A DNA stretch of 64,000 nucleotides from Bacteroidaceae bacterium (GTDB lineage: Bacteria > Bacteroidota > Bacteroidia > Bacteroidales > Bacteroidaceae), in contig JAFXVN010000076.1 in assembly GCA_017524545.1 (NCBI GenBank), positions 1 through 64,000 of the forward strand, written 5' to 3'. Shown here piece after piece: positions 2,555-59,860 of this stretch. The position numbers were made by a program, and so were the translations under genes. The notes under the pieces are model-generated. The model had not been told where the DNA came from and searched no databases. It saw only the letters and a list, made by a program, of their open reading frames with translations. Positions within the stretch are counted from its first letter, which is position 1. Each line of letters opens with the position of its first letter.

Positions 2555-5038
2555 TCATCTGCCTTTCATCAGTAACGACATTAGGTATGATACAATGATA
2601 CACACCACCATTCCTATGAGGCCGAAGGTGAAGACGTTGGCTTCGGTGAAGCTTTTTATCATGAAGACGGTCACTTCGCCTGCGATGAAGCCTAAGAGTC
2701 CTGCATAGCCTCTGACGCGGGGCATGAAGACGGCGACGAAGAAGAGGCCGCCCAAGCCGCTGGTCAGCAGGCCAAGGATGGTGTTGAAGTAGTCGAGGAG
2801 CGAGGCGATGTCCCATGTCGCCATCAGCAGGGCGAGGCTGAGGCCAATCAAGCCGCTCACGACGCACGTCCAGCGTGCCACTCTCAGCAAGGCCGCGTCG
2901 CTTGTCTTTTGGCGGAACCGCTGCACGAAATCGACGCTGAAAGCTGTCGAAACCGAGTTGATGTTGCTCGAAATGGTGCTCATGGTGGCCGCGAAGATGG
3001 CGGCAATGAGCAGTCCTGCCAAGCCTGCGGGCATCTGGCTCATCATGAAGAAGGGGAAGATGGCATCGCCCTGCTGCATGGTGATGTCGAGGCTTGCGGG
3101 GTGCGTCTTGTAGAAGGTGTAGAGACCCGTGCCGATGAAGTAGAAGGCTACGGAGATGAAGACGCTCATGAAGCCGTTCACAAGGATGCTGCGGCCTGCA
3201 CTCTTCTCGTCCTTAGTGGTCATGTAGCGCTGGATGACGGTCTGGTCGCTGGTGTAGGAGATGAGGTTGTTGGCAACGCCGCCGCCCAGGATGGCCACCC
3301 AGAAGGTGACGCGCCGGTAGTCCCAGCTCCAGTCGAAGAGGCGCAGCTTGTCATTATCGACCGCTATCTGCCATGCTCCCGAGAAGCCGCCCTCGGTGCC
3401 GCTCCACAGATACAGGGCTGCGAAGATGGCACCGCCAACGAGGATGCATCCCTGCACCACATCGCCCCAGATGACGGCCTCCACGCCGCCCATCGTGCAG
3501 TAGATGATGGTGACGAGTCCCATCAGCACGATGCAGAGGTAGATGTCGATGCCCGTCACAGCCGTCAGCGCAAGCGAAGGCAGGTACATCACCAGTGCCA
3601 TGCGTGCCACCATGAAGACGCAGAACAGGGTGGATGCCATCAGGCGTGTGGCGGCGTTGAAGCGCTCTTCCAGTATGGCGTAGGCCGAAGCCGCCTTGCT
3701 CCTGCGGAAGTAGGGCAGGTAGTACCATATCACGGGGAAGCCCACGGCGGGAATCATCCAGAGCATCGGGTAGTAAGTCCAGTCGGTGGCGTAGGCTTTG
3801 GCGGGGATGGCCATGTAGGTGATGGCACTGAGCATCGTGGCATAGATGCTGATGCCCGCCGCCCACCAGGGGATGCGTCCGCCCCCTTTGAAGAAGTCCT
3901 CGGCGCCGTTCTCGCGGCGCATGAAGTAGATGCCCATGCCCAGCATCGCTATCAGATAGAGGGCAAGCACCGCCCAGTTGAGGAAGCCGAAATGCGTCTC
4001 ATGCTTCGTCTCGATGAGCGAAATCTTGTTCGACCTTATGCCGGGCATCGTCTCGCCGCCGCTGTAATACCAGCCTCCGTCGAATGGTGTAAGGGCAGCA
4101 CCAGCGCGAGCCAAAGCGGTGTCGCCAGGGATGACAGCCCACGAGTCGGTGATGGTGTGGTAGGCCAGCACGTCGCTGCGGAACTTGTACCACGACGGTT
4201 CGTGGCGCAGGTAGAGGCTGTCCTGCCTGCCTTGTATGGCAGAGAGGAAGATGTCGTAATCCACACCGCCGAAGAAGAGGATGTGGCTGTAGCCGCACGT
4301 CGTGCAGCAGGAGCCGACGAGGGCCTCCCCCGTTGCCGTCTCTTTCCATTCAAGTGTTTTCAAGTTGAGCTTGAGGCCTTTGGTATATACAACTCCCTCT
4401 CCTTTGGAGAGGGCTGGGGTGAGGCTGCCTCCAAAAATAAACAGCGCCTTCCCTTCGGGCGCATTCTGCACAGCCATGCAGGGCTGCAGCCTGCCAGCGT
4501 CTGGAAGCTCGCACAGCTTCACCCATTCCTTCCCGTCAGGCCAGTCAAGGGCATAGACATCCCTGTTGGGAACGCCGTCGGTCTGACCGCCTGCCACGAA
4601 GATTCTGTCCGCACCATAGCAGGCGGCAAAGTTGTCGAGGCCTTTGGGCAAAGGTGGAAGCCCCCTCTCCGCTCCCCCTTTGGGGGAGTACTCCATTCCC
4701 ACTAAGAGACATTCATTATCGCTTTTGATTACAGCGGCATTGTGGCACTCCCCGGGGAGGGGGCATTGCCCCCCAATATACACCGTCCCTTCCGGCACAG
4801 CCACGCTTGCGCCGTATGCCTTGGGGTAAAAGACTTTCTGGCCTCCGTCGGCACAAGGCACATCGGGGAAGTTGCAGCCACCCCATGTCTGGAGCTGCCC
4901 GGAGACGATACCGGCGAAGTGTCCCGAGACAGCCTTGTCCATGTGGCCAGCCGGAGTGACCGTAATACTGTTCTGCCCCCAGCAGAGGCTGAGGGCAAAA
5001 AAGGAAAGGATGCAGATGAGTGCAGTTCGGTTTTTCAT
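2555..5038 (-). CDS. Fusion of a cyclically permuted NanM-like kelch mutarotase and a sodium:solute symporter
   Basis: An 827-residue protein. Residues 1-21 are a signal peptide. Residues about 25-345 are a kelch beta-propeller (repeated G-G strands such as IFVAGGQT, IFGGS, WYYSGGE) like the cyclically permuted sialic-acid mutarotases. From about 352 a multi-helix SSS-family Na+ symporter follows, with the typical YFMRRENGAEDFFKGGGRIPW segment after its first helix. The propeller would sit in the periplasm and hand its sugar to the symporter; sialic acid is the likely substrate given the downstream epimerase. Three GC-rich hairpin elements are read through in frame in the propeller (about residues 92-98, 117-133 and 205-217). 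Confidence 0.85.
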   Translation of the reverse strand: MKNRTALICILSFFALSLCWGQNSITVTPAGHMDKAVSGHFAGIVSGQLQTWGGCNFPDVPCADGGQKVFYPKAYGASVAVPEGTVYIGGQCPLPGECHNAAVIKSDNECLLVGMEYSPKGGAERGLPPLPKGLDNFAACYGADRIFVAGGQTDGVPNRDVYALDWPDGKEWVKLCELPDAGRLQPCMAVQNAPEGKALFIFGGSLTPALSKGEGVVYTKGLKLNLKTLEWKETATGEALVGSCCTTCGYSHILFFGGVDYDIFLSAIQGRQDSLYLRHEPSWYKFRSDVLAYHTITDSWAVIPGDTALARAGAALTPFDGGWYYSGGETMPGIRSNKISLIETKHETHFGFLNWAVLALYLIAMLGMGIYFMRRENGAEDFFKGGGRIPWWAAGISIYATMLSAITYMAIPAKAYATDWTYYPMLWMIPAVGFPVIWYYLPYFRRSKAASAYAILEERFNAATRLMASTLFCVFMVARMALVMYLPSLALTAVTGIDIYLCIVLMGLVTIIYCTMGGVEAVIWGDVVQGCILVGGAIFAALYLWSGTEGGFSGAWQIAVDNDKLRLFDWSWDYRRVTFWVAILGGGVANNLISYTSDQTVIQRYMTTKDEKSAGRSILVNGFMSVFISVAFYFIGTGLYTFYKTHPASLDITMQQGDAIFPFFMMSQMPAGLAGLLIAAIFAATMSTISSNINSVSTAFSVDFVQRFRQKTSDAALLRVARWTCVVSGLIGLSLALLMATWDIASLLDYFNTILGLLTSGLGGLFFVAVFMPRVRGYAGLLGFIAGEVTVFMIKSFTEANVFTFGLIGMVVCIIVSYLMSLLMKGR
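4393..4424. repeat. GC-rich hairpin element inside the mutarotase-symporter gene
   Basis: CCCTCTCC TTT GGAGAGGG forms a perfect stem at 4395-4413 and is followed by CTGGGGTGAGG. On the coding strand it yields LTPALSKGEG, a low-complexity loop in the kelch domain. Confidence 0.8.
4661..4688. repeat. GC-rich hairpin element inside the mutarotase-symporter gene
   Basis: CTCCCCC TTT GGGGGAG (4672-4688) is preceded by CCCCCTCTCCG. It is read in frame as YSPKGGAERGLP. A shorter related palindrome, CTCCCCGGGGAG, follows at 4748-4759. Confidence 0.8.
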
Positions 5039-5053: not shown

Positions 5054-7105
5054 TTATTTAATCAATGCCACGCTGCGCTTCACGAAGCGGGTCAAGGCTT
5101 CACCTTTGAGCAGGCCGTTCTGGAGGAGGGCAAGGTCGATGAGCTGATGCACGCGGTCGTTCTTCTCGGCGTATTCCTTCAGCACATCGTCGCGCTTCTG
5201 TTGCTCGGCACGGATGTCCTCGCCGCACTTCTTCAGGTCGTCCTTTTCTTCCTGAGTGATTTCTTCGGGCTTCTTCTTGTCCTGTTCCTGACGCAGCACA
5301 GCCTGACGCGCATTCAGTCCGCGCAGCTCTGCCTCGATGGGTTTCAGGGCTTCTTCGGTGCTCTTCTCGCAATCCTCGAGCACTTCGCGGATGAGCGGCG
5401 AGTCGGTGTTGAGCACGATGTTGTACATGTCGGGCATCTCGCCATAGAAGGCCATTCCGGGTTGCAGACGAGCCATCTCTTTCATTCGGCGCATGTACTC
5501 GCTCTGCGTCATCATCACGGGCAACTGGTCTTCGCCAAGGGCTTGTGCCTCGACGTTGAAATCGACCTTGTCTGTCTTGGGAGCTTGCGAGCGGAAGACG
5601 ATGGAAAGCTTGTCCGAGCGCTCTGCTTCAAGCTTCTCGCGCTTGGTCTCTTCCTTCTGAATGAGGCGTTCGATGACATCAGCATCAACTCTCGTGAATG
5701 TTGATTTCTCGAGCTTCCTTTCAAGAAGACCAATCAGTGGAGCATCGAGCTGACCGTCCATCAGGAGCACTTTGTAGCCCTTCTGCTTGGCGGCGTCGAT
5801 GTAGGTGTATTGCGCGTCGGGATCGTTGGCATAGAGATAGACAAGCTGTCCGTCCTTGTTCGTCTGGTTGTCCTTGATGAGGGCTTGGAACTCGTCGAGC
5901 GTGTAGTGCTTGCCCTCGGTGTCCTTCAAGAGGAAGTAAGCCTTTGCCTTGTCGTAGTAGTCCTCTTCGGTGAGCAGGCCGTAGTGGATGAATATCTTGA
6001 TGTCGTCCCACTTCTTCTCGAAGTCCTCGCGCTCGTTCTTGAAGATGCCAGCCAAGCGGTCGTTCACCTTCTTCGTGATGTACGAGCTGATTTTCTTGAC
6101 ATTGGCATCGCTCTGGAGGTAGCTGCGGCTGACGTTCAGAGGGATGTCGGGCGAATCGATGACACCGTGCAGCAAGGTCAGGAACTCGGGCACGATACCT
6201 TCCACTGCGTCTGTCACGAAGACCTGGTTGCAGTAGAGCTGAATCTTGTTGCGCTGGATTTCGATGTTGTTCTTTATCTTCGGGAAGTAGAGGATGCCGG
6301 TGAGGTTGAAGGGATAATCGACGTTGAGGTGAATCCAGAAGAGCGGCTCGTCGGCCATCGGGAAGAGGTGACGGTAGAACTCTTTGTAGTCCTCGTCCTT
6401 GAGGTCGGCAGGCTTCTTTGCCCACAGCGGCTCTACATTATTTATTATATTGTCTTCATCGGTATCCACTTGCTTGCCGTCCTTCCATTCGGTCTTCTTG
6501 CCAAAGGCGATGGGAATGGGCAGGAAGTGACAGTACTTGCGAAGCAGGCCTTCTATCTTGTCCTTTTCGAGGAACTCCTGGCAGTCGTCGTCGATGTGCA
6601 TCACGATGTCCGTGCCTCGCTCTGCCTTTTCAACCTCTTCGAGAGTGAAGCTTGGGCTGCCGTCGCAGCTCCATTTCACGGCAGGAGCGTCCTGATAGCT
6701 CTTTGTGATGATATCGACCTGCTTGCTCACCATGAACGATGAGTAGAAGCCGAGACCGAAGTGGCCGATGATGGCGTTCGCGTCGTCCTTGTACTTGTCG
6801 AGGAAGTCGTTGGCACCCGAGAAGGCAATCTGGTTGATGTACTTCTCGATTTCGTCGGCAGTCATGCCGATACCGCTGTCGCTGACAGTAATAGTCTTAG
6901 CGTCTTTATCCACTCTGACCCGAATCTTCAGGTCGCCCAGCTCGCCTTTGAAGTCGCCTTTGCCTGCAAGCGTCTTGAGCTTTTGCGTGGCATCGACAGC
7001 GTTACTGATGATTTCGCGAATGAAGATTTCATGGTCGCTATAGAGAAACTTTTTGATGACGGGGAAGATATTCTCGGTTGTAACCCCGATGTTTCCTTGT
7101 TTCAT
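5054..7105 (-). CDS. htpG: Molecular chaperone HtpG (bacterial Hsp90)
   Basis: A 683-residue Hsp90. The GHKL ATPase domain carries NAVDA (motif I, about 35-39), DSGIGM (about 96-101) and GHFGLGFYSSFMV. The middle domain has the NVSR catalytic-arginine segment (NVSRSYLQ), and the C-terminal part is the dimerisation domain with a charged lysine-rich stretch. No MEEVD tail, as expected for a bacterial form. It is a cytosolic ATP-dependent chaperone. The start ATG at 7105 lies just before a GC-rich hairpin element that separates it from clpC; the next gene downstream starts 15 bp away. Confidence 0.97.
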   Translation of the reverse strand: MKQGNIGVTTENIFPVIKKFLYSDHEIFIREIISNAVDATQKLKTLAGKGDFKGELGDLKIRVRVDKDAKTITVSDSGIGMTADEIEKYINQIAFSGANDFLDKYKDDANAIIGHFGLGFYSSFMVSKQVDIITKSYQDAPAVKWSCDGSPSFTLEEVEKAERGTDIVMHIDDDCQEFLEKDKIEGLLRKYCHFLPIPIAFGKKTEWKDGKQVDTDEDNIINNVEPLWAKKPADLKDEDYKEFYRHLFPMADEPLFWIHLNVDYPFNLTGILYFPKIKNNIEIQRNKIQLYCNQVFVTDAVEGIVPEFLTLLHGVIDSPDIPLNVSRSYLQSDANVKKISSYITKKVNDRLAGIFKNEREDFEKKWDDIKIFIHYGLLTEEDYYDKAKAYFLLKDTEGKHYTLDEFQALIKDNQTNKDGQLVYLYANDPDAQYTYIDAAKQKGYKVLLMDGQLDAPLIGLLERKLEKSTFTRVDADVIERLIQKEETKREKLEAERSDKLSIVFRSQAPKTDKVDFNVEAQALGEDQLPVMMTQSEYMRRMKEMARLQPGMAFYGEMPDMYNIVLNTDSPLIREVLEDCEKSTEEALKPIEAELRGLNARQAVLRQEQDKKKPEEITQEEKDDLKKCGEDIRAEQQKRDDVLKEYAEKNDRVHQLIDLALLQNGLLKGEALTRFVKRSVALIK

Positions 7106-7161: not shown

Positions 7162-9705
<2,544 letters not shown>

Positions 9706-9785
9706 TTATCCATTTACCTTTTACAATGTACTGTTTGCTTTCTATCCTACAAATGTTGTGCCAATATGGAAAACGTGACGGAACA

Positions 9786-12744: not shown

Positions 12745-15591
12745 TCAGTCTTTCGGTTCTCCACAGTACAGAATCTCTCCGCCGTTGCGTCCCCCGCCTG
12801 GCCCCATCTCAATAATCCAGTCGGCTGCGCGGATAACATCCGTGTTGTGCTCGATGACGATAATGGTGTTGCCTTTATCGACAAGTTTGCGCAGCACTTC
12901 GAGCAGGACGCGGATGTCCTCGAAGTGTAGTCCTGTGGTCGGTTCGTCCAGAATGTAGAGCGTGCGGCCTGTGTCGCGTCTACCAAGTTCGGCGGCAAGC
13001 TTCACGCGCTGGCTCTCGCCTCCCGATAGGGTGTTGCTGGGCTGGCCAAGCTTGATGTAGCCAAGACCGACCTCCTGCAATACCTTTATCTTATTAAGGA
13101 TAGTGGGTTGGTTGGCGAAGAACTCGACAGCTTGGTTGATGGTCATGTCAAGCACATCGGCAATGCTTTTCCCACGGAAGCGCACTTCGAGCGTCTCGCG
13201 ATTGTAACGCTTGCCGCGACACTCCTCGCAGGGTACAAAGACGTTCGGCAGGAAGTTCATTTCGATAGTGCGGTAGCCATTGCCACTGCAACACTCGCAG
13301 CGTCCGCCTTTGACGTTGAACGAAAAGCGTCCGGGCTTGTAACCTCTGATGCGGGCTTCCGGCAACTCGACGAAAAGGCTGCGTATGTCCATGAAGACAC
13401 CTGTGTAGGTGGCAGGATTGGAACGCGGTGTCCGCCCCAGTGGACTCTGGTCCACATCAATTACTTTATCGATATGCTCCAGTCCCTCTATGGAGCGGTA
13501 GGGCAGGGGGTCTGCAAGCGAACGGTAGAAGTGTTTGCTGAGTATGGGGAAGAGCGTTTCACTGATTAGCGTGCTCTTCCCGCTACCGCTGACTCCCGTG
13601 ACGCAGAGGAACTTCCCCAAGGGTATCTCCACGTCTATGTCCTTGAGATTGTGGCCAGAGCAGCCGAACAGTTTAAGTGAAGAATGAAGAGTTAAGAGTG
13701 AAGAATCAGATTTACTTTCTTCCTCTAAACGGTTACTATTATTCTTCACTCTTAACTCTTCACTCTTCACTTCAATGCAACCCTTCAAATACCTTGCTGT
13801 CAGCGTGTCGGTCTTCAGCATCTCCTTATATGTTCCCTGAAAGACCACTTCGCCTCCGCGTCTGCCAGCAAGCGGCCCGATGTCAACGATGTAGTCTGCA
13901 TTCTCCATCATATCGCGGTCGTGCTCCACGACAAGCACCGTGTTGCCTGCGTCGCGAAGAGCCTTGAGCGAGTTGATGAGTTTGATGTTGTCGCGCCGAT
14001 GAAGGCCGATGCTCGGCTCGTCAAGGATGTAAAGCACTCCCACCAACTGGCTGCCAATCTGTGTGGCAAGGCGTATGCGCTGGCTCTCGCCCCCAGACAG
14101 GCTCATGGAGGGACGTGAGAGGGAGAGGTAGTCAAGTCCCACGTCGAGCAAGAACTTCAGTCGGGTCTTTATCTCCTTTATAATCTCAGAGGCAATGGCT
14201 CTTTGGCGTTCGCTGATACGCTGGTCAAGCCCTTCTAACCATTCGTAGAGTTGGCCGAGTTCGAGGGCGGACACTTCGGCAATGTTGACCATTGACCATT
14301 GACCATTGACCGTTGTCCATCCGGGGAGCAGGAAGTGCAGCGATTCTTTTCTCAGTCTTTGGCCGCGACACTCAGGACATTCACAGACTCCGCTGAACTG
14401 CTCTGCCCATTTCTGGGCGGCAGCACCAACCTCCGCATCTTTCATCTGCTCAATGTACTTGACCAGACCGTCGAACTCCGTATAGATGTCGTTCGTCGTT
14501 CTGGCCTTTTCAGCAGGGATTCTGAGTCGCCCCGAGCTGCCTTCCAGCACTTCGCCGATGGCTTCGTCGGGCACCTCGCCAAGCGGCGTGTCCATGGTGC
14601 ATCCGTACTGTTCAAGCACGGCTTCCACCTGCCAGAATATCATCGCCTGCTTTGCTTTGCCGAGAGGTGCAAATCCACCCTCACGAAGCGAGAGGCTGGG
14701 ATTGGGGATGACTTTGTTGCGGTCGATGATGTGAACAAATCCCAGGCCCTTACAGCGCGGACAGGCTCCCTGGGGGCTGTTGAAGGAGAAGTCGTGCGGG
14801 GCAGGGTCGTGATAGGAGATGCCGCTTGTGGGGCACATCAGGTGTTTGCTGTAGTGGCGCACTTCGTTTGTGTCCATGTCGCAGACGAGCATTTCGCCGT
14901 CGCCTTGCTTCATCGCCGTTGCCACGCTCCCGACAAGCCGCTTGTCGTCCTTGTCCTGAATGCGGAGGCGGTCTATGACCACCTCGATGCTGTGGTTGCG
15001 GTAGCGGTCGAGCTTCATGTCCGGCAGTACCTCCTGCATCTCGCCGTCAACGCGGGCATAGAGATAACCCTTGCGGCGGATGGTCTCGAAGAGTTCCTTG
15101 TAATGTCCCTTGCGGTTTTTCACAAGCGGAGCCAGCAGGACAATGCGTTTGCCGAGGTATTCGTTAAGGAGCAGGTTGAGAATCTGTTCCTCCGTGTAGC
15201 GCACCATCTTTTCACCGCTGACGTAGGAATAGGCTTCGGCAGCACGGGCATAGAGTAGGCGCAGAAAATCGTAAATCTCGGTTGTCGTCCCAACGGTGCT
15301 TCGCGGGTTCTTGTTTGTGGTCTTCTGCTCGATGCTGATGACGGGACTCAGGCCGGTTATCTTATCGACATCCGGCCGTTCCATGCCTCCGAGGAAGTTG
15401 CGGGCGTAGGCACTGAACGTCTCAATGTAGCGGCGTTGGCCTTCGGCATAGATAGTGTCGAAAGCCAATGAAGACTTGCCGCTTCCGCTCAGGCCTGTGA
15501 TAACTGTCAAACTGTTACGCGGAATCTCTACATCCACATTCTTCAGGTTGTGGACACGTGCACCTTCCACGCAAATCTTCTGCTCACTCAT
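12745..15591 (-). CDS. uvrA: Excinuclease ABC subunit A
   Basis: A 948-residue UvrA, the damage-recognition ATPase of nucleotide excision repair. It has two ABC ATPase modules, Walker A GLSGSGKS (33-40) and GVSGSGKS (666-673), two LSGGES signatures, and zinc-finger cysteines (CPRC, CECPEC, CECC...CEEC). The start is placed at 15591 ([10 protein letters not shown]); the frame is open further upstream but that overlaps the preceding gene. Three repeat-derived insertions are read in frame: about residues 296-309 (GC-rich type), 422-436 (TTGACCA heptamers) and 606-641 (35-codon palindromic heptamer block). All fall outside the ATPase motifs, so the protein is probably active. It overlaps the upstream gene's stop by 8 bp, suggesting coupling. 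Confidence 0.96.
13676..13780. repeat. 105-bp palindromic heptamer block inside uvrA
   Basis: The left arm 13676-13705 and right arm 13742-13771 are reverse complements over 30 bp with one mismatch. Both arms are built of 7-bp units (AGTGAAG type, complement TTCACTC type). The block is 105 bp, or 15 heptads and 35 codons, and keeps the uvrA frame. Confidence 0.9.
14285..14319. repeat. Heptamer array (TTGACCA x5) inside uvrA
   Basis: Five consecutive 7-bp units, three of them identical TTGACCA and two degenerate. It is translated in frame as part of a loop after the zinc-binding CECPEC region. Confidence 0.88.
14675..14706. repeat. Degenerate GC-rich hairpin element inside uvrA
   Basis: CCCTCACG AAG CGAGAGG followed by CTGGGATTGGGG resembles the CCCTCTCC...GGAGAGGGCTGGGGTGAGG element at 4393. 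It encodes [14 protein letters not shown] at residues 296-309. Confidence 0.55.
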
Positions 15592-16354
15592 TGCCGCCTC
15601 CGCCTCCGTTGCCGTTTTCGTCCTCGCCATTGTTGAAGCCGGAGATGACATTGATAGCTTTCTTAATGCTATAGTCGATGCCGTCGCCGCCCTTGGCAGA
15701 GACGACAAGGAAATAGACACCGTCCTTCACAACCTTTCCGTTCACCTTTCCATCCCAATAGCCGTTCACGTCATCCCATGAATACAGCTTCTGCCCCCAG
15801 CGGTTGAAGATAGCGGCATGAAAGGAGACAATGCTCTTGAAGCCCTCTTTGGGTTTGAGCACATCATTCTTCTCATCGCCATTGGGCGAAATACCGTTGG
15901 GAAATTCCAGCTTGCTCTCTGCAATCGTGAAGTTGATGATTTTTTCTTCATCGCCTTCTTCGGGATATTCGTAGATGATGTCTTCCCCGCCTTCGTCGTA
16001 GAAGAGAACCTGAAGCTGTGCCTTGTAGGTGCCGCTCTCGTTGAACTCCAGCTCAAAATCCTCTTCGTTGCGCACAATGGGCGTAGCTGCGGCGGTGGTG
16101 TTCTTTGTGTTTGTTATCGTCCATGTGTAATGGGCGTTACTGCTGAAACCGTCGGGGAAGGGTCTGGATGTGTTTGCCTGAAAGACGATGCGGACGGGCG
16201 CATTCAGAGGACCCGTTTCTGAACCGATGACACCAGTTTCCTCCTCACCTTTGTCGTTGGTCATGTAGTATGTGGCGGTGGGGTCGAGGGTGGGTGCCTG
16301 TGCCCATGCAAAAAGCGGCATTAGAGCAAGGAAAAAGAATAAAATACGCTTCAT
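15584..16354 (-). CDS. Secreted protein with gliding-motility-type (T9SS type B) C-terminal domain
   Basis: A 256-residue protein with a signal peptide ([19 protein letters not shown]). The C-terminal half is a CHU_C/type B sorting domain: the [14 protein letters not shown] motif, [11 protein letters not shown] and GVYFLVVSA are its hallmarks. It ends in an unusual glycine/asparagine-rich tail after that domain. Such proteins pass the outer membrane through the type IX system. The ATG at 16354 is preferred because the signal peptide begins there; a longer frame to 16405 adds a second hydrophobic stretch. A -7-like TATTTTTG is at 16372-16379. Confidence 0.8.
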
Positions 16355-22328: not shown

Positions 22329-22765
22329 GTTTCCTTTTCTTCATCTTCAAGGTCGAACTCAAAGTCCCCGAAGAACTCGGGCATTTCGCTTTGGAAGTCA
22401 TCGAGGCTGCGGCGTTCTTTCTTGGTGGGGCGTCCTGTACCTTTGGCTCTGCCGACGAAGCCGCTTATCTTGCTCATTTCGAGCAGCTCGTACTGGTCGG
22501 GTGTCGTGACGTTCTCCAGTATCTCGGGGATGAGCTTGGCACCGACGCGCCTTTCAATGGGCTGGAGCACGCGGAAGCTGTAGGTGATGGGCGGTTTGCG
22601 GACGCTCACCACGTCGCCTGCCTTAATCATCCGGCTGGCCTTGAGCTGTGTGCCACCCATGCTGACCTGCCCTTTCTTGCAGGCGGCGGCAGCGATGGTG
22701 CGGGTCTTGAAGATGCGAGCAGCCCACAGCCATTTGTCTATACGAGCCTCAGTACTTGAGTTCAT
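22325..22765 (-). CDS. RNA-binding S4-domain protein (Hsp15/HslR-like)
   Basis: A 146-residue basic protein whose first 65 residues form an S4 RNA-binding domain (RIDKWLWAARIFKTRTIAAAACKKGQV, KASRMIKAGDVVSV), with an acidic tail (EFDLEDEEKE). Hsp15 homologues bind stalled 50S subunits carrying nascent tRNA. It sits with pth, rplY and pepT, which fits translation quality control. The ATG at 22765 is inside a TTCATAG heptamer array. Confidence 0.88.
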   Translation of the reverse strand: MNSSTEARIDKWLWAARIFKTRTIAAAACKKGQVSMGGTQLKASRMIKAGDVVSVRKPPITYSFRVLQPIERRVGAKLIPEILENVTTPDQYELLEMSKISGFVGRAKGTGRPTKKERRSLDDFQSEMPEFFGDFEFDLEDEEKET

Positions 22766-22855
22766 AGTTCATAGTTATGAGTTCATAGTTATTGTTTTGT
22801 TCTGTTTGATGGCGTAGCCCAACTATGAACTATGGACTATGAACTATGAACTAAT
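22761..22855. repeat. Two opposed heptamer arrays between pepT and the S4 gene
   Basis: TTCATAG-type units run from 22761 to 22795 and AACTATG-type units, their reverse complement, from 22821 to 22855, with about 25 bp between. They can fold into a long hairpin. The S4-gene start codon (22763-22765) and the pepT stop codon (22837-22839) both lie in the arrays. Confidence 0.92.
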
Positions 22856-24075
22856 GTGAGTCTGCAAATGTTCACGACGGTCATCATGGCCTTCTCCATG
22901 CTTTGGATGGGGACGAACTCGTGACGGCCGTGGAAGTTGAGTCCTCCGGCGAAGATGTTGGGGCAGGGGAGTCCCTTGAAACTGAGCTGGGCGCCGTCTG
23001 TGCCGCCTCGGATGGGCACCACTTTGCAGAAGCCGCAGGCCTCCTCTATGGCGCGTTTGGCAATGTCCGTCACCTGGGGTTTGTCCTGTAGCTGGCTCAG
23101 CATGTTGTAGTATTGGTCCTTGACTTCGGTCGTTACGGTGTCCTGTCCGTACTTGGCGTTGAGCTTCTCGGCGATGTCGAGCACCACCTGCTTGCGGAGC
23201 TGGAACATGCCGTTGTTGTGGTCGCGGATGATGTAGGAGAGTTGAGCCTCTTCCACGGTGCCGCCTATGCCAGTGAGGTGGAAGAACCCCATGTAGCCTT
23301 CTGTGGTTTCAGGTCGCTCATTTTCAGGCATAAGTGCTGCAAACTCTGAAGCAATGATGCAAGCGTTCTTCATCTTGCCCTTGGCATAGCCGGGATGCAC
23401 GTTGCAGCCCTTGATGTGTATCTTCGCGCTGGCGGCATTGAAGTTCTCGTACTCCAATTCGCCCACCTCGCTGCCGTCCATCGTGTATGCCCACTCGCAG
23501 CCAAACTTCTCGACATCGAAGAGGTGTGCGCCTGCTCCAATCTCCTCGTCGGGGTTGAAGGCGACACGAATCTTGCCGTGCTTGATTTCGGGATGAGCCA
23601 TCAGGTAGCTCATGGCGGTGACTATCTCGGCGATGCCTGCCTTGTCGTCCGCTCCGAGCAGTGTGTGGCCGTCGGTGACGATGAGGTCTTCGCCGATGTG
23701 TGTCTTCAGTTCGGGGAACTGGCTGACGGTCGTCACGATGTTTTCCTCTTTGCAGAGGATGATGTCCGAGCCGTCGTAGTTTTCGATGATGCGGGGCTTG
23801 ATGTTGGCACCGCTGCAATCTGGGCTTGTGTCGATATGGGCGATGAAGCCGATGGTGGGAACCTGCTTGTCGGTGTTGGCGGGCAGGGTGGCATAGACGT
23901 AGCCGTGCTTGTCCATCTCGACTTCGGTTAGGCCAAGTGCCGTGAGTTCATCGCGCAGATATTCTGCCAGTGCCAGCTGCTTCTCTGTGCTGGGGCATTG
24001 CGTCTCGTTCTCTTCGCTGCTTTGTGTGTCGAAGCTGACGTAACGGAGAAATCGGTCTGTTAATTCATTATTCAT
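22837..24075 (-). CDS. pepT: Peptidase T (tripeptide aminopeptidase)
   Basis: A 412-residue M20B zinc peptidase. Metal ligands and catalytic residues are in IAHIDTSPD (His, Asp), LGADDKAG (bridging Asp), NPDEEIGAG (catalytic Glu and ligand Glu), and a C-terminal [12 protein letters not shown] with the last histidine. It releases N-terminal residues from tripeptides in the cytosol. Both ends are formed by heptamer arrays: the start codon and MNNE lie in the ATTCATA array, and the last residues HSS plus stop lie in the AACTATG array. Confidence 0.95.
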
Positions 24076-24132
24076 AATTCACAATTCCTAAATTATTCCC
24101 TAATCTCTATTCCCTAATCCCTAATCCTAATC
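24063..24132. repeat. Ten-heptad array joining pth and pepT
   Basis: Ten consecutive 7-bp units keep one phase: four ATTCATA-like, then AATTATT, then CCCTAAT/CTCTATT-like. It contains the pepT start codon (24073-24075) and touches the pth stop codon (24131-24133). Confidence 0.92.
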
Positions 24133-28354: not shown

Positions 28355-28359
28355 TAATT

Positions 28360-28443
28360 ATTTTCAAGCCTTGGAAATATATTATCAAGCTTTGAAAATA
28401 TATTTTCACGCCTTGAAAATATATTATCAAACCTTGAAAATAG
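28360..28443. repeat. 84-bp array of four palindromic 21-mers (copy 1)
   Basis: Four 21-bp units, each three heptads, with a near-palindromic core such as TTTTCAAGCCTTGGAAA. It lies between malQ and mltG, which converge here. It is the same as 40233-40316 in direct orientation apart from three bases. Confidence 0.93.
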
Positions 28444-29571: not shown

Positions 29572-29662
29572 AGATTAGGGATTAGGGATAAAGAAACAGG
29601 GAAAAAGAGCAAAAACAACAGGAAAACATATAATTTTGAATTTAATAATTTTGAATTTTGAA
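29572..29662. repeat. Composite heptamer array upstream of tRNA-Thr
   Basis: Thirteen consecutive 7-bp units in one phase, beginning AGATTAG, GGATTAG and passing through GGAAAAA, GAGCAAA to TTTTGAA twice. The same order of heptads occurs at 59861-59923. The -33 box of the tRNA promoter lies in its last units. Confidence 0.88.
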
Positions 29663-29680
29663 TTATATGTTGTACCTTTG
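29650..29680 (+). promoter_or_regulatory. Promoter of tRNA-Thr
   Basis: A perfect match: TTTG (29650-29653), 19-bp spacer, TACCTTTG (29673-29680). The tRNA starts 13 bp further on. Confidence 0.9.
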
Positions 29681-29764: not shown

Positions 29765-29765
<1 letters not shown>

Positions 29766-30487
29766 CAGAGCGAATCCTCTGCCGCCATCGGTAGGGGATT
29801 TTCTTTTATGGAATCTGCCACAGTCTGCGTCATAACGTGGCTCAGTAGATTTTTCAGGCTATCCTTTTTGCTAAGGTCGAGCCATGCACCTTGAAGCCCT
29901 TCGCGCTTGGCTCCTTCGACGTTTACCAGGGCATCGTCGATGAAGAGACACTGTCCGGCTGGTCTTCCTATCTGTTGGACGGCTTGGCGGTAAATCTCCC
30001 CGTCGGGCTTTGCCAAGTGCATTTCGTGAGAGACAAAGACGTGGTCGAAGAGGTCGGCGCAGGTGTAGCCTTCTTCTGAAAAATAGCGACGCTTTGTCTC
30101 TTCCCAGTGAAGGTCGTTGGTGTTGGAGAGCAAGTGTGTGTGGTAGCCTTTTCTGCGAAGTTCCTTTATCATGTCCAATCGTTCTTTTGGCAACGGGCCG
30201 ATACAGGCGTTCCATGCTTCGATGACATCTTCACGGGTTATGCCTTTGCCGCAATAGCCGAGGACAAGCGATAGGAACTCTTCACTTGTCATGTTGCCAA
30301 CTTGATATTCTGTGATGGCTTTGCTTGCGGAGATACCGTGACAAACGGTAGAAGTGTTCTCTTCGTCAGCCTTGACAAAGAACAGTTCGGGATTGATGCC
30401 TAAGCGCTTACAGGCTTCCCCTACGCCTTGCATATTGAGGTCGAGCAGCACGCCGCCCAGGTCAAAGATAATATCAGTCAGATTCAT
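29765..30487 (-). CDS. HAD-superfamily phosphatase (subfamily IA, YihX-like)
   Basis: A 240-residue cytosolic hydrolase with motif I FDLGGVLLD (nucleophile Asp), motif II LLSNTN, motif III lysine in LAKPDGEIY and motif IV CLFIDDALVN. The D-L-G form of motif I is shared with the sugar-phosphatase YihX group. It is the last gene of the TPP-riboswitch run, after the TonB receptor and PnuC, so dephosphorylation of thiamine phosphates before or after uptake is a reasonable guess but not shown. The start at 30487 (MNLTDIIFD) is inside a heptamer array; the stop abuts tRNA-Thr. Confidence 0.85.
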
Positions 30488-30530
30488 AATTAACAATTAG
30501 CAATTAACAATTAAGAGTTATGGATTGTTG
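30482..30530. repeat. Heptamer array joining pnuC and the HAD gene
   Basis: Seven 7-bp units (ATTCATA, ATTAACA and variants) in one phase. The HAD start codon (30485-30487) and the pnuC stop codon (30504-30506) both lie within it. Confidence 0.9.
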
Positions 30531-31142
30531 GGCTTTCATCATTCTGCGCCAGCGGAGGTAGCCGAAGATGGCGATGATGACGTAGAGGCCGTAGAGCGAG
30601 GCTTTGAAGGGTATGTCCTTGTGGAAGTAGAGCACGCAGGTGACGATGTCCACGGCAATCCACACGAACCATTGTTCCAGGTACTTATGCGCCAAAGCCC
30701 AGATGCCGATGAGGGACAAGGATGTTGTAAAGGCATCGGCAACGGGGACGGTGGAGTCGGTGAAGGTTGAAAGCAGCCACCATATCAATGCCCACAGCAG
30801 CAGGAAGAGTGTGCCCCAACACAAAGCAATGTGAGATGGAATATGGGAGATAGACCTCTCTAAATCTCCCCTTAAAGGGGAGACTTCCTCCCTCCCTTTA
30901 AGGGAGGGCAGGGGTGGGTCTTTTTTCCACTTCCAATAGCCGTAGGCTGTCATGGCCAGATAGTAGAACTCCATACCGCAGTCGGCATAAACGCCTTTCT
31001 GATAATAGAGCACTATGCCCAGGATTTGCATGACTGCTCCGACTGCCCACATCCAGATGGAAGCTCGGTACTCCAACAGGATGTATGCAAGTCCGAGGAT
31101 GGTCGTCGTGATGTCGAGCCAGTGATTAATTATAAAGTTCAT
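30504..31142 (-). CDS. PnuC-family transporter, probably thiamine (PnuT)
   Basis: A 212-residue membrane protein with about seven helices, of the SWEET-like PnuC family (IWMWAVGAVMQILGI, EQWFVWIAVDIVTCVLYF). PnuC carriers take up nicotinamide riboside, riboflavin (PnuX) or thiamine (PnuT). Its place behind a TPP riboswitch and a TonB receptor supports thiamine. A cytoplasmic or periplasmic loop at about 75-97 is made of two GC-rich hairpin elements read in frame, and the C-terminal residues (SITLNC) come from a heptamer array. Confidence 0.88.
   Translation of the reverse strand: MNFIINHWLDITTTILGLAYILLEYRASIWMWAVGAVMQILGIVLYYQKGVYADCGMEFYYLAMTAYGYWKWKKDPPLPSLKGREEVSPLRGDLERSISHIPSHIALCWGTLFLLLWALIWWLLSTFTDSTVPVADAFTTSLSLIGIWALAHKYLEQWFVWIAVDIVTCVLYFHKDIPFKASLYGLYVIIAIFGYLRWRRMMKAQQSITLNC
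30854..30918. repeat. Two GC-rich hairpin elements inside pnuC
   Basis: TCTCCCCTTAAAGGGGAGA (30865-30883) and the palindrome CCTCCCTTTAAGGGAGG (30891-30907) stand side by side, followed by CAGGGGTGGG. They add about 21 residues to a loop between membrane helices. Confidence 0.88.
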
Positions 31143-31168
31143 AGTCCATAGTTATTCTTCACTCTTCA
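31138..31168. repeat. Heptamer array joining the TonB receptor and pnuC
   Basis: TTCATAG, TCCATAG, TTATTCT and TCACTCT in 7-bp phase. It contains the pnuC start codon (31140-31142) and ends on the receptor stop codon (31166-31168). Confidence 0.82.
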
Positions 31169-33732: not shown

Positions 33733-33742
33733 CGACAAAAAA

Positions 33743-33847
33743 GTGAATAGTGAATAGTGAAAAGTGAAAAATTATTTGTTGTTCCTTAATCTTTATTCCC
33801 AAATCCCTAATCTCTAATCCCTATTCCCTAATCCTTATTCCCTTTTC
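33743..33847. repeat. Fifteen-heptad array upstream of the thiamine operon
   Basis: Fifteen 7-bp units in one phase: GTGAATA/GTGAAAA types, then a run of CCTAATC, TCTAATC, CCTATTC and CTTATTC types. It includes the stop codon of the DUF4491 gene (33835-33837). Confidence 0.92.
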
Positions 33848-34124: not shown

Positions 34125-35768
34125 TCACTTTGGCACCTTATAGAGCGCGTCGGTCTGCTTGATTATTTGACGCCTGAAGTTCTCGGGATAGCCCGGGCGA
34201 AGCACGGGACGAGGATTGCCGCCGGGGGTCTTCTCGTACTGTCCGTTCTCGTCCATACGCTTGACAGCCATATCGTTATACTTCACGATGATAAGCTGTG
34301 CCAACTGGTTCCATTCGTCCATCATCGCACTTGCCGAACGATGACTATAGGCCGAAAGGAACTTGACGGCTTCCTCCTGACTCATTGCGGCTGCCTCGTC
34401 CTCAATCTTGGGCTGTAGGGCGTTGAAGTCGGCCTCTATCCTGTCGCGAACTTTTTGCAGCTCAGGGAAGAGAAGACTGTAGCGCAGATAGACCATATTG
34501 CTGACCCAGTTCTCCACCCAATAGGCAGAGCGCGTGGAGAAATGGAAGGCGTCGGCAGTACTCTTGTCGTAGCATTCGGGAGCCTGCTTCGTGTTGCAAT
34601 AGACAGGCGTGAAGGCTACCATGTTCGCGTCGTCGTTGGCAAACCATGTGACACCGCCGATATGATTGGGGAGCCAGGAGCGCATCTGACTGACATAGAC
34701 GCAGGCCGACTGCTGCGTGCTGATGGGTCGCTCGTTGAAATACTTCACGCCATCGACCTCATAGCTCAGTGGGGTGGGGCGGTAAGGCATTTCCCAAGGA
34801 CCCATGCCGATGTCCTCGGTCAGAGCCATCGGTGTGCCTTCGTAGTGGTCGCGCATCATGTCCTTGACATCCTGAACGGAGAGCGGAGCCTTCGGCTTGA
34901 CATAAAGCGGCAGGACTTGACCTTTTGTGTCGCCCATCGCGTATGGGAGGTATGGCTTCATGTCCTCGGCAGCCCATTTGTTGAAGTAGCTCCAGATGCG
35001 TGCCTCGCAATAGCGCAGAGCACCGAAGTCAGCAGGTGCGTAAGCGTCTGCAAATGAGAACTCAGCATCCTTTCCACTGAAGTAGCCCTTCTCCTTTGCA
35101 AAGCTGATGACATCTTTTGCGTAGAGGCAGTTGTCCATGTCCTTGAGTGGGAACTGATGGATGCGGCTTTGGTTGGCATGACCGCTGATGCAGTCGTCGG
35201 GAATGCGCACGGCAACCCATACCGTTCCCTTGCGACCCGGGCCTTTGCCTATCATGTCCATAATCCAAACCTCATTGGGGTCGGCAATGGTGAAGCTCTC
35301 GCCTTCGCTCTCGTAGCCGTAGGTTTCGGTCAGCTCCGTCATAACCTTAATGGCTTCGCGGGCAGTTTTGGCACGCTGAAGGCAAAGCACCATGAGCGAG
35401 CCATAGTCGATGAGGCCGCTGATGGTGTCCGTCAGCTCCGTGCGTCCGCCGTAGGTCGTTTCGTGGATGGAAAGCTGAAACTCGTTCATCAAGCCAACGA
35501 TGCCGTAGGTATGAGGCACTTCTGGAATCTCGCCCAGGTAGTTGCCCGACTCGTAATGATAGAGAGGATGCATCGTCCCTGCCGGATGGTCTTTGGCCGG
35601 AATGACGCGCAACGGCTCGAAGGAACCATAGTCGTCCTGGCTATAGGAAATGATGACGCTGCCGTCTTTTGAGGCTTTTTTGCCGACAACAAGGTTTGTG
35701 CAGGCCTGTAAAGTTGAAAGTTGGAAGTTGAGAGTTATCAACCCAAGGAGTATAACGAGGCGTTTCAT
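34125..35768 (-). CDS. C69-family dipeptidase
   Basis: A 547-residue Ntn hydrolase of the PepD/U34 family. The nucleophile is the cysteine directly after the signal segment (ACTNLVVGKKAS, Cys about 23), and YSQDDYGSFEPLRV, YGIVGLMNEFQLSIHETTYGG and MDMIGKGPGRKGTVW are family motifs. It cleaves dipeptides. The signal peptide is partly encoded by an AAAGTTG heptamer array (I-T-L-N-F-Q-L-S-T-L), yet still gives an acceptable hydrophobic core. Its ATG overlaps the TPR gene's stop by 4 bp. Confidence 0.9.
   Translation of the reverse strand: MKRLVILLGLITLNFQLSTLQACTNLVVGKKASKDGSVIISYSQDDYGSFEPLRVIPAKDHPAGTMHPLYHYESGNYLGEIPEVPHTYGIVGLMNEFQLSIHETTYGGRTELTDTISGLIDYGSLMVLCLQRAKTAREAIKVMTELTETYGYESEGESFTIADPNEVWIMDMIGKGPGRKGTVWVAVRIPDDCISGHANQSRIHQFPLKDMDNCLYAKDVISFAKEKGYFSGKDAEFSFADAYAPADFGALRYCEARIWSYFNKWAAEDMKPYLPYAMGDTKGQVLPLYVKPKAPLSVQDVKDMMRDHYEGTPMALTEDIGMGPWEMPYRPTPLSYEVDGVKYFNERPISTQQSACVYVSQMRSWLPNHIGGVTWFANDDANMVAFTPVYCNTKQAPECYDKSTADAFHFSTRSAYWVENWVSNMVYLRYSLLFPELQKVRDRIEADFNALQPKIEDEAAAMSQEEAVKFLSAYSHRSASAMMDEWNQLAQLIIVKYNDMAVKRMDENGQYEKTPGGNPRPVLRPGYPENFRRQIIKQTDALYKVPK
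35710..35737. repeat. Heptamer array inside the C69 signal peptide
   Basis: AAAGTTG, AAAGTTG, GAAGTTG and AGAGTTA. The units are translated as the hydrophobic and polar end of the signal peptide just before the catalytic cysteine. Confidence 0.85.
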
Positions 35769-40172: not shown

Positions 40173-40232
40173 CACTGGCTGTGTTTTCTTTTTTGCCGTG
40201 GCACAAAAACTTGAACTACAGGCCTACAAACT

Positions 40233-40316
40233 ATTTTCAAGCCTTGAAAATATATTATCAAGCTTTGAAAATATATTTTCACGCCTTGGAAATATATTAT
40301 CAAACCTTGAAAATAA
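40233..40316. repeat. 84-bp array of four palindromic 21-mers (copy 2)
   Basis: The same unit order as 28360-28443 in direct orientation, with three base differences. The right flank (to 40345) is the reverse complement of the left flank of copy 1 over 33 bp with two mismatches. Confidence 0.93.
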
Positions 40317-40357
40317 TTATGTAACCTGCCTAAATGACTTTTTCTGCTGCCTGCTCG

Positions 40358-42178: not shown

Positions 42179-42187
42179 CAAAAAAAA

Positions 42188-42215
42188 TGAAGAATGAAGA
42201 GTGAAGAGTGAAGAA
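42188..42215. repeat. Heptamer array (TGAAGAG x4) between the AlkD-like and fur genes
   Basis: Four exact-phase units, TGAAGAA/TGAAGAG. It ends exactly where the stop codon of the AlkD-like gene begins (42216). Confidence 0.9.
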
Positions 42216-42755
42216 TTATTTAGCGTTGAGAGCATCTTTGAGTGTCAAGATGGCTTTTCTCAAGTGCAAATTGGCCGAAGGCAGCATTTGTGTTGCCGTT
42301 TCTTCGACGAATTGTCTCTCCTCTTGGCTGAACATGACACCCTGCACAAGCAGATGCCGCAGACAGAGGCAAGCACAGGTGCAGGGGAGCGGCTTCCCTT
42401 CTCCGAGCCAAGCCAAACTTATGTCTTTTGCATGGCTTGTTTTGGACAGAAGCATCATCGCCAGCACTTGTGCCTCTTCTGCTGTGACCATTGTCTCAGC
42501 CCAGGCGTTTGCCACTTCCTGCGTAAACGCATCGGGCGGCATGAGCATGATAGCCAGCAACTTAGTCTCTCTGATGTTCTGCTGCCAAAGCTGATTAGCC
42601 AGCTCTGCATCCTGCGGAAACTCATCTGCAATGCTGCGCAGCCTTGGCAACTCCACGCCGAAAATGAGTTTGAAGGGCATTCCAGCCTCTCGCATCCTGG
42701 CCGACAGAATGCCATTCATGCTTGCCCGCAGTTCTTTCTTTATTTCATTAAGCAT
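42216..42755 (-). CDS. DNA alkylation repair protein (AlkD/HEAT-like)
   Basis: A 179-residue all-helical protein of the AlkD superfamily: RMREAGMPFKLIFGVELPRLRSIADEF and LWQQNIRETKLLAIMLM match the HEAT-like repeats that grip damaged DNA. It is shorter than AlkD (about 230 residues), and whether it keeps glycosylase activity is unknown. The start MLNEIKKEL at 42755 is preferred to 42773. Confidence 0.75.
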   Translation of the reverse strand: MLNEIKKELRASMNGILSARMREAGMPFKLIFGVELPRLRSIADEFPQDAELANQLWQQNIRETKLLAIMLMPPDAFTQEVANAWAETMVTAEEAQVLAMMLLSKTSHAKDISLAWLGEGKPLPCTCACLCLRHLLVQGVMFSQEERQFVEETATQMLPSANLHLRKAILTLKDALNAK

Positions 42756-46772: not shown

Positions 46773-47189
46773 TTATTTATACATTTGCTTGTACTCCTTC
46801 GGCGTCGTTCCGCAAAGTCTGTAGAACGTGGCATAGAAGCTTTGGCGTGTCGTGAAGCCCACGTTGATGGCAATGTCTTCCATCGTCATCTTGTCGAAGT
46901 TGCTGTCCTGGAGCATGTATCTTGCTTCGTGGATGCGCATCATGCCCACCAACTGCGAATAGTTCTGCTGGAAACGCAGATTGATGACCGCGCTGATTTG
47001 GCGAGAGTTGACCCCGATGTCGCCGGCAAGGCGCTTGGCAGAATAGTTAGGGTCGCGGTACTTCTGCTCAATCATCAGCTTCAAGATAATCTTCTTTGCA
47101 ATGTCTTCCACAAGGTCGGGCGTGACGGAGTTCCTGTAGGAGAGCGTCTGCGTCTTTTCCTTCTTCTCTGTGATGTTGTATTTTGCCAT
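46773..47189 (-). CDS. AraC-type helix-turn-helix regulator (DNA-binding domain only)
   Basis: A 138-residue protein. Residues about 40-135 form a double HTH of AraC type (LAGDIGVNSRQISAVINLRFQQNYSQLV; MTMEDIAINVGFTTRQSFYATFYRLCGTTPKEYKQ). There is no ligand-binding domain, only a 35-residue lysine-rich head, so a signal would have to come from elsewhere. The start codon is the last part of an ATTGTCT heptamer array. Confidence 0.85.
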   Translation of the reverse strand: MAKYNITEKKEKTQTLSYRNSVTPDLVEDIAKKIILKLMIEQKYRDPNYSAKRLAGDIGVNSRQISAVINLRFQQNYSQLVGMMRIHEARYMLQDSNFDKMTMEDIAINVGFTTRQSFYATFYRLCGTTPKEYKQMYK

Positions 47190-47215
47190 TGTCTATTGTC
47201 TATTGTCTATTGTTA
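47188..47215. repeat. Heptamer array (ATTGTCT x4) joining GDPD and AraC-type genes
   Basis: Four units in exact phase. The GDPD stop codon (47193-47195) and the regulator's start codon (47187-47189) both come from it, leaving a 3-bp gap between genes. Confidence 0.92.
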
Positions 47216-53132: not shown

Positions 53133-53200
53133 TTCACGCATTTCACGGATTTAAGTGCTAATGATAATCAGCAAGTAAGATAATCCGTGAAATACGTGAA
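53133..53200. repeat. Inverted repeat (TTCACGNATTTCACGGATT type)
   Basis: The arms 53133-53151 and 53182-53200 are complementary over 19 bp with one mismatch, 30 bp apart. It is of the same style as the large repeat at 1119-1295. Confidence 0.85.
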
Positions 53201-54989: not shown

Positions 54990-55076
54990 AATTGAAAAGT
55001 TAAAAGTTTAAAAGGTGAAAAGGTAAAAAACTCTTCACCTCTTCACCTTTTCAATTTTTTAATTTTTCACCTTTTG
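54990..55076. repeat. Short-unit array between SGLT and galK
   Basis: Units of 7-9 bp (TTAAAAG, TGAAAAGG, then the complementary CTCTTCACC, TTTTCAA types) fill the junction and can form a hairpin. Phase is less regular than in the true heptad arrays. Confidence 0.65.
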
Positions 55077-56237: not shown

Positions 56238-56270
56238 AATTATATTAATTGTTAATTTTTAATTGTTTTA
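56233..56270. repeat. Heptamer array joining the MFS permease and galK genes
   Basis: TTCATAA, TTATATT, AATTGTT, AATTTTT, AATTGTT in 7-bp phase. It spans exactly from the galK start codon (56235-56237) to the permease stop codon (56268-56270). Confidence 0.82.
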
Positions 56271-57551: not shown

Positions 57552-57591
57552 AATTTTGAATTTTGAATTAATAAAATTTGAATTTGTTTTA
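57549..57591. repeat. Heptamer array (AATTTTG-type) joining galM and the permease gene
   Basis: AATTTTG twice, AATTAAT, then AATTTG variants. It contains the permease start codon at one end and touches the galM stop codon (57589-57591) at the other. Confidence 0.78.
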
Positions 57592-59835: not shown

Positions 59836-59846
59836 ATTTTGCGCTG

Positions 59847-59854
59847 CAAAGGTA
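59847..59854 (-). promoter_or_regulatory. Promoter -7 box of the lipid kinase gene
   Basis: TACCTTTG on the minus strand, 11 bp before the start codon. The composite heptamer array begins 7 bp upstream. Confidence 0.72.
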
Positions 59855-59860
59855 CAAAAA

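Follow-up and report, generated by a model that had tools for sequence, protein, structure and literature searches.

Protein-coding palindromes are best known from Rickettsia, and the short tandemly repeated repetitive (STRR) sequences of cyanobacteria are generally described as confined to intergenic DNA. Here we set beside such systems the heptanucleotide arrays found in a 64,000-nucleotide stretch from a Bacteroidaceae bacterium (assembly GCA_017524545.1, contig JAFXVN010000076.1, positions 1 to 64,000; hereafter the window), which we consider likely to be the arms and flanks of several small dispersed repeat-element families spread through a genus of gut Bacteroidales. One of these families, termed E, is read in frame within the uvrA gene of the window.

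Rickettsia palindromic elements (RPEs) are described as forming several families with a conserved peptide and as lying in frame within conserved genes (PMC10969869, PMC2229807). The likeness of E to them lies in the hairpin-forming dispersed repeats of ~100–150 bp, in the existence of several families, and in the presence of intergenic copies as well (PMC10969869, PMC2229807); the differences are that E belongs to another phylum, that its arms are tandem heptamers whose units are also used by promoter modules, and that the same protein loop holds different families, or plain arrays, across species. Tandem heptamers themselves have been reported as TAACTGA repeats in Beggiatoaceae, Cyanobacteria, and five Bacteroidetes (PMC4679880), and as GGGAATC repeats in Xanthomonas and GGGGA(C/T)T repeats in Nostoc (PMC4692102); an excess of heptamers has long been known, and polymerase slippage was proposed for it by Mrazek in 2007, as cited in PMC4679880. 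The arrays described here share with these repeats the period of 7, an intergenic position that is often near start codons, a strong excess, and variation in length and sequence between relatives, but the published work mostly concerns a single unit, with mixed heptamers mentioned for Microcystis and three Bacteroidetes, whereas here there are 35 unit classes, many of them tied to hairpins and in-frame copies (PMC4679880, PMC4692102).

Two further kinds of small element invite comparison. BrickBuilt of Porphyromonas gingivalis is likewise a small mobile element of the Bacteroidales that contains a tandem array, but it differs in its 23-nt unit, its leader and tail, and its small inverted-repeat ends, and the available part of its description mentions no in-frame use within enzymes (PMC4596501). 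Correia/NEMIS and ERIC are likewise small inverted-repeat elements able to fuse in frame with genes, and for several such miniature inverted-repeat transposable elements (MITEs) both duplication of the target and a 5'TA3' end have been reported (PMC2229807), whereas no duplication is visible by eye at the sites studied here; the inverted arms of the present elements correspond to the terminal inverted repeats by which MITEs are recognized. In the open-access literature, to which our search was confined, no palindromic or heptamer element lying in frame in a Bacteroidales gene was found.

The preliminary description of the window had proposed that its arrays keep a strict 7-bp period, and this is borne out, since period scoring returned 7 as the best period in all 11 intervals that it named; dinucleotide shuffles equalled the score in 0–6 of 1000 cases for ten of them, and interval 31138–31168 is weak (25 of 1000). 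The same scoring found period 8 at 54995–55075 and a best period of 11 at 2492–2552, and Tandem Repeats Finder (TRF) reported period 7 in 24 of its 69 rows for the window. The survey was then extended to a sample of 855,507 bases of the same genome (the window plus stretches L009–L048), about 24% of a 3.6-Mb draft in 85 contigs, in which open reading frames (ORFs) were assigned with a simple caller; the comparison genomes are drafts as well. Arrays of periods 5, 6, 7, 8, 9, and 10 occur there at 0.0, 0.1, 16.7, 2.1, 3.9, and 0.2 per 100 kb, and one set of shuffled intergenic DNA from a 464-kb part of the genome held no period-7 array. Four other species of the genus, sampled at 80–120 kb each, have 21, 13, 5, and 2.5 period-7 arrays per 100 kb. 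The excess over neighbouring periods expected by the preliminary description is thus present in the own genome and in three of the four sampled species, the exception being the species with the lowest density (G117), in which period 9 is commoner at 4.2 per 100 kb. An exceptionally long array, of ~15 TTTCCAC units, was seen in G110 (L148, 10862).

The 166 arrays of the sample fall into only 35 unit classes when rotation and strand are merged, compared with 107–119 classes in three draws of GC-matched heptamers and 145–149 in five draws of random intergenic heptamers. The commonest units are TTTTCAC, TTCATAG, TTCATAA, TCTTCAC, TCTTAAC, and TTTACCA; many classes differ from one another by only one or two substitutions, and several recur in the four other sampled species. 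The units are therefore not unrelated, as had first been supposed. With the array itself masked, 123 of the 166 still had 18 or more matching bases in common with some other sampled locus, as against 37 of 166 AT-rich, array-free controls, and most arrays therefore travel together with other sequence. Unit differences between sites are accordingly no argument for independent origin, and the earlier inference from them, that slippage or template copying rather than spread had produced the arrays, is not supported in view of the 35 classes, the shared flanks, and the recurrence of whole elements. Nor do all arrays resolve into one mobile family of fixed sequence; several families were found instead. 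A reading of the arrays as three-frame stop cassettes was tried, because a stop occurs on one strand or both in 163 of 166 units (32 of 35 when counted by class, against an expected fraction of ~0.73 from weighted strata, p=0.007), and was dropped, being confounded both by A+T content and by common descent and at odds with the in-frame copies.

The sample contains 139 inverted repeats; heptamer arrays in inverted orientation form 21 pairs in it, with one arm common to two of the pairs. Family D has TTAAGAATTAAGAG arms; family F has TTCATAG or TTCATAA arms, often with the core GGGCGTAGCC in between; family E has GTGAAGA/TCTTCAC arms; and family A has period-9 arms, ACGGATTTC. GC-rich hairpins and a 21-bp palindrome are further dispersed families. 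At 53133–53200 of the window, and at many other loci, the period-9 arms ACGGATTTC enclose a conserved loop, TAAGTGCT..ATAATCAGCA; in G079, G103, and G082, the 160 bases read ahead of the neighbouring gene showed no such hairpin. The 21-bp palindromic repeat TATTTTCAAGCCTTGAAAATA stands in about four tandem copies at 28359–28442 and at 40232–40320, and at many other loci of the sample. GC-rich hairpins AGCCCCCTCCCCGCTCCCCCTTTGGGGGAG lie within called ORFs in L009 (6411–6504), L023 (7819–7912), L039 (12297–12390), and L045 (6845–6946), and related hairpins sit in sister species in the same enzyme loops as heptamer elements.

Family E gives the clearest view of such an element inside genes. It aligns over ~93–106 bp, has inverted arms, and occurs in many copies: searches with its purL and metH copies found, among the matches listed, further copies elsewhere in many of 20 relatives at ~75–91% identity, and queries with the E-bearing LeuA or PolA gave up to 74 matches per genome, a figure that includes short or partial matches and the gene itself. 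The best 20 copies outside purL, which were chosen by likeness to an in-gene copy and represent ~15 distinct sites, all lie in ORFs, on one strand, and encode a common peptide with SNSDSSLFTLHSSL or a close variant. In 18 of them only one frame is open, and 17 agree in frame index; the exceptions, the three PrmC copies, align over a longer stretch that includes an indel but encode the same peptide. Pfam matches were obtained for 19 of the 20 host ORFs, which comprise PrmC and UvrA-type proteins (three each), PolA (two, in the linker after the 5'-3' exonuclease), LeuA, ABC proteins, and DUF4922 proteins (two each), and one each of a FabF-type protein, a semialdehyde dehydrogenase, an acyl-CoA dehydrogenase, a U32 peptidase, and a PDDEXK nuclease. 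Among 71 matches to the E peptide with an expectation value below 1e-5, 64 are free of stops in frames of at least 200 codons, five contain a stop, and two lie in short frames; the richest genomes are G105 with 24 matches, G110 and G120 with 21 each, G020 with 13, and G000 with 10. Six clear copies were found in the own sample, five of them in genes with recognizably the same peptide and one intergenic. In a search for E outside the genus, 301 genomes of the family gave, at an expectation value of 1e-4 or better, only the own genome and two weak matches. The same insert stands at the same site in separate species, in LeuA of G120 and G110 and in PrmC of G020, G105, and G110, and such insertions common to sister species are probably single events. 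E thus has two of the properties that define RPEs, being a hairpin-forming dispersed repeat and occupying conserved genes in frame, where it encodes a peptide of its own (20 of 20 copies); by analogy it appears to work as they do, a likeness of behaviour that implies no kinship of sequence.

In the window, E lies in uvrA (12745–15591, in ORF 12745–15720, minus strand), whose identity follows from Pfam UvrA domains, translation, and a structure model and whose nearest named relatives are metagenome-assembled genomes (MAGs) labelled Prevotellaceae or Bacteroidaceae, one of them from yak cecum and another, RUG606, from a rumen set. Together with the gene content of the window, these relatives assign it to gut Bacteroidales. 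This gene carries two in-frame heptamer inserts, both on the minus strand: the E element at 13675–13772, with inverted GTGAAGA/TCTTCAC arms and a loop, which reads as a 33-letter peptide, and a TGGTCAA array (TTGACCA on the plus strand) at 14285–14320, which adds 30 bp in frame and reads as an 11-letter peptide. The two sites fare differently among 29 locus comparisons, own included: the TGGTCAA site is 34 bp long in 28 and 64 bp in the own genome only, whereas the E site is 98 bp without E in 19 and takes seven other lengths in the remaining ten, several sister species having other inverted repeats there (CCTCTCACC-type heptamers, GC-rich hairpins). All length differences between the alleles are multiples of 3. 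In a wider set of 110 loci (30 from the genus, own among them, and 80 named Bacteroidales), 84 were readable across the UvrA linker: it has its common length of 69 residues in 62 and is longer in 22, where repeat-like peptides occur in some. The named uvrA ORFs contain a period-7 array in five of 80 and a period-9 array in one, and looser bounds add two just outside the ORFs. This pattern suggests that the UvrA linker may be a hot spot for inserts across Bacteroidales. Linker inserts of the PNPSR.GGE or GNSGDSG repeat type were noted in the named MAGs L209, L214, L220, and L227. A structure model of the window UvrA (34 sequences, mean predicted local distance difference test score 78.5) places the E insert in a low-confidence stretch, residues 613–635, and predicts the TGGTCAA insert to form two strands, 420–428 and 431–435.

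Three other enzymes show how variable such positions are. PurL contains four arrays and MetH, whose ORF is cut at the end of the fetched stretch, contains five, and six of the nine lie between matched Pfam domains. In 20 sister genomes searched, the matches listed for these positions include E, arrays of TTGCCCC, TTCATAA, AATGTTC, or ATTGACC, period-8 and period-9 arrays, GC hairpins, and a short plain allele. All 193 length comparisons over eight purL, metH, and uvrA sites are multiples of 3; they are not independent, some genomes entering as two loci and the own genome being part of the uvrA sets. At the leuA site, readable in 10 of 12 genomes searched, the plain loop preceding FDFHAH is VERYPSCR in G052 and G005 and VERYPELH in G082, and its place is taken by E (G120, G110), by a TGGTCAA array in G074, by an AATGGTA array in G103, by a GC hairpin in G000 and G079, and by a hairpin plus AATGGCA in G013. 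In G052 and G005 the plain allele already includes CAAATGGT, which could have seeded both the AATGGTA and the TGGTCAA array, and because of such short matches between loop and unit this one site suggests, as a guess, that plain arrays may enter by microhomology or local slippage.

The placement of the arrays in the genome is likewise mixed. The preliminary description had located them at gene junctions, which is true of many, but others are intragenic, such as 13678–13771 and 14285–14320 in uvrA, and the crude caller places 52 of the 166 within ORFs. The cyanobacterial STRR class, which it had named as nearest analogue, is a fair one for the period, the excess of 7-mers over other periods being found here too, but not for the in-gene, in-frame copies, since the arrays are not confined to intergenic DNA. 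Spacers between convergent genes rarely hold arrays (5 of 108 versus 59 of 393 spacers; p=0.0018, arrays sharing a spacer being counted separately), and an enrichment at divergent junctions is not significant (p=0.09). TAnnTTTG is known as the -7 element of sigma-ABfr (PMC7366714). GTAnnTTTGC occurs no more than 250 nt from a gene start at 80 sites, and the 55 bases upstream of it reach a period-7 score of at least 0.42 in 22 cases, against 1.75 in shuffles and 8.1 in random intergenic stretches; a period-8 score of 0.42 is reached in eight of 80, against 2.4 in shuffles. By eye, the typical module reads AAATAAT, about four heptamers, a T-run, and GTACCTTTGC. Promoters that lack an array frequently have, again by eye, TTTGnnnTTTG ahead of TAnnTTTG, which gives the -33 region a natural spacing of 7 bp.

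The period, the limited unit library, the shared flanks, the dispersed copies, the in-frame position in conserved genes, and the variable occupancy of sites in relatives were all computed directly, and the account that we think likely to join them is as follows. The elements would exist mainly as hairpins with inverted heptamer arms (less often 8- or 9-mer arms), as promoter modules of about four heptamers upstream of the -7 element, and as single arrays. They would spread by copying and persist where they are tolerated, in the spacers upstream of genes, in protein loops, and in linkers between domains; within genes only in-frame, stop-free copies would survive, adding or replacing ~10–35 residues, and family E, usually with one open frame, would in this way put the same peptide into many unrelated enzymes. 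Slippage may afterwards lengthen and homogenize the arrays, and the effect on host proteins would be near neutral. We entertain with considerable doubt a bolder version, according to which a genus-wide store of tandem-arm hairpins is continually written and swapped at the same surface loops (UvrA, PurL, MetH, LeuA, PolA, PrmC), the loop being replaced in frame; a given position of one enzyme would then hold different repeat-encoded peptides in related species.

Several observations weigh against dispersed elements as the source of the arrays. No dispersed partner was found for 43 of the 166 arrays, and 37 of the 166 AT-rich controls have one. A peptide search that reads through stops finds E in only 28 of the 139 genus genomes, the own genome among them, and the manner in which the 20 E copies were chosen favours in-frame ones. 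At purL, metH, uvrA, and leuA no target-site duplication is visible by eye and no very close empty site exists among the alleles; those of purL and leuA look like replacement of a loop and not clean insertion, where a simple transposon predicts otherwise. Arms do not covary in 19 pairs, mostly of families D and F (within 23.8, between 25.3, p=0.92), and those of E covary weakly (p=0.0125 by permutation, n=12 with one copy counted twice), and we have accordingly abandoned arm-to-arm correction inside each hairpin, unsupported in the former and weak in the latter. The four Y1-transposase-like loci of the genome lack arrays of period 7 to period 10, and only one of them has a dispersed repeat nearby, a GC-rich hairpin ~440 nt upstream (L111, 719–804).

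Among the alternatives, replication slippage acting independently at each site and favouring 7 nt, arrays growing from local seeds and being homogenized in place, is one that we regard as unlikely. It would accommodate the strong period-7 excess, the partnerless arrays, the CAAATGGT seed in the plain leuA allele, and the finding that in other species the same junction keeps an array with a different unit, and on two of these counts, the changing units and the 43 arrays without a partner, slippage may still have made or homogenized arrays; it sits poorly with a limited unit library over many sites, shared non-array flanks, and dispersed hairpins with conserved loops. With a large share of arrays tied to dispersed elements, the heptamer excess seen here contrasts with the slippage proposal for such excesses. 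Selected regulatory DNA at gene starts, whether as the upstream part of a sigma-ABfr promoter or as an unstructured leader, seems to us distinctly unlikely: the period-7 score upstream of 22 of 80 promoters, the depletion at convergent junctions, and the similar placement relative to the -7 element speak for it, but 58 of the 80 promoters have no array, the arrays inside ORFs do not fit, and orthologous promoters are array-free in G103, G110, and G120; the promoter role is a correlation only. Convergent junctions also speak against the hairpins as transcription terminators between genes, for which the long stems formed by inverted array pairs could be cited; arrays are depleted exactly where terminators are most needed, copies lie inside open genes, and we hold this explanation to be extremely improbable. 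An artefact of assembly or gene calling is scarcely credible, draft genomes and a crude ORF caller notwithstanding, given the same inserts at the same LeuA and PrmC sites in separate species and the period-7 arrays inside the uvrA ORF at five of 80 loci from named records.

A resident mover was also sought. Repetitive extragenic palindromic (REP) sequences and their associated tyrosine transposases (RAYTs) are described with a GTAG or CGTC tag beside a 20–40 bp palindrome (PMC3733652), and REP-like hairpins moved by a resident RAYT/Y1 transposase would be conceivable here in that the genome has four Y1_Tnp-like ORFs (L109–L112), three of them above the Pfam cut-off, and the GC-rich hairpin upstream of one. 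Yet besides the missing arrays, the four loci show no ungapped inverted repeat at the threshold used, so that no transposase gene flanked by repeats, the arrangement typical of REP/RAYT systems, was found at them, and GC hairpins are common enough in the genome for a single neighbour to be unremarkable; we rejected a resident RAYT as the mover on these grounds and rate the explanation as very unlikely. The Y1-like ORFs measure 334–408 residues and have PDHxH motifs, and two of them look very similar by eye. Our search identified no mobilizing enzyme, target duplication, or RNA intermediate for the arrays or elements.

The remaining arrays of the window illustrate the range of forms. An imperfect TTTACTA/TTTACGA array occupies a junction at 2492–2552, with period 7 second to period 11 and a similar order of variants in L015, L025, and L046. 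An imperfect ATTTACC array at 9237–9269 lies within ORF 7162–9705 (minus strand; ClpA/ClpB match), and a weak TTTACCA array at 9691–9724 (22 of 1000 shuffles) at the 5' end of that ORF. The F element at 22759–22853 consists of an AGTTCAT array, the core GGCGTAGCC (22811–22819), and an inverted AACTATG array; its junction holds other arrays in relatives, or 38–48 bp without an array. Upstream of pepT (22837–24075, minus strand), a TTCATAA array passes into a TCCCTAA array at 24061–24132, where some relatives have array-free alleles of 43–44 bp. GATTAGG and AATTTTG arrays follow at 29573–29664, the latter adjoining the TTGTACCTTTGCACC promoter that precedes tRNA-Thr, then an AATTAAC array at 30488–30514, at the junction of ORFs 29765–30496 and 30504–31142 (both minus strand), and a weak two-unit remnant of TTCATAG and TCTTCAC at 31138–31168. 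On the minus strand, a TTTTCAC array (AAAAGTG on the plus strand) at 33739–33770 is in phase with a GTACCTTTGC promoter and is adjoined by a TCCCTAA array at 33797–33847, and a TCTTCAC/TCTTCAT array at 42186–42216 stands upstream of another such promoter. A minus-strand AAAGTTG array (CAACTTT on the minus strand) at 35710–35736 lies in the 5' end of ORF 34125–35768 (minus strand), ahead of a C69 dipeptidase match; heptamer arrays within the first ~40 codons were also noted in L021 (1786–3381, minus; 5564–6928, plus), with starts that resemble signal peptides by eye.

Towards the end of the window, arrays sit at the starts of several ORFs. An ATTGTCT array at 47188–47213 lies at the start codon of ORF 46773–47189 (minus strand) and is absent from all six orthologous junctions read, G079 having a period-9 array there. 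The period-8 hairpin found by TRF and an inverted-repeat search at 54995–55066 (AAAAGGTG / CACCTCTT) is of a matching type in G079 and G103 and has different arms in G082. A TTAATTG array at 56245–56267 marks the start of ORF 55077–56237 (minus strand), with other units in relatives, and an AATTTTG array at 57552–57585 the start codon of ORF 56268–57551 (minus strand), where the unit is AATTTTG in G082, TTATTGT in G079, G103, G105, and G120, and GAAAGTT in G110. A divergent promoter module at 59845–59972 combines a GATTAGA array, a core, (TCTTCAC/TTTTCAC)x4, and TTTTTTTTGTACCTTTGCAC; besides the three array-free species named above, its orthologues have arrays in G079 and G105 and a degenerate array in G082. 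Two features apart from the heptamers were noted: period-13 arrays near the window start, at 405–530 (GAAGTTATGAAGA; ATTATAACTCCCA), and ORF 2555–5038 (minus strand), in which a mutarotase-like part (71–339) is fused to a sodium/solute symporter (382–787).

In gut Bacteroidales, more than a dozen housekeeping genes contain elements that behave like RPEs and are built of tandem heptamers. Sister species of the genus have the loop of one enzyme in plain form or occupied by E, an array, or a GC hairpin, a natural series that allows direct comparison and test of what becomes of selfish DNA in proteins and of how the long-noted bacterial heptamer excess arose.

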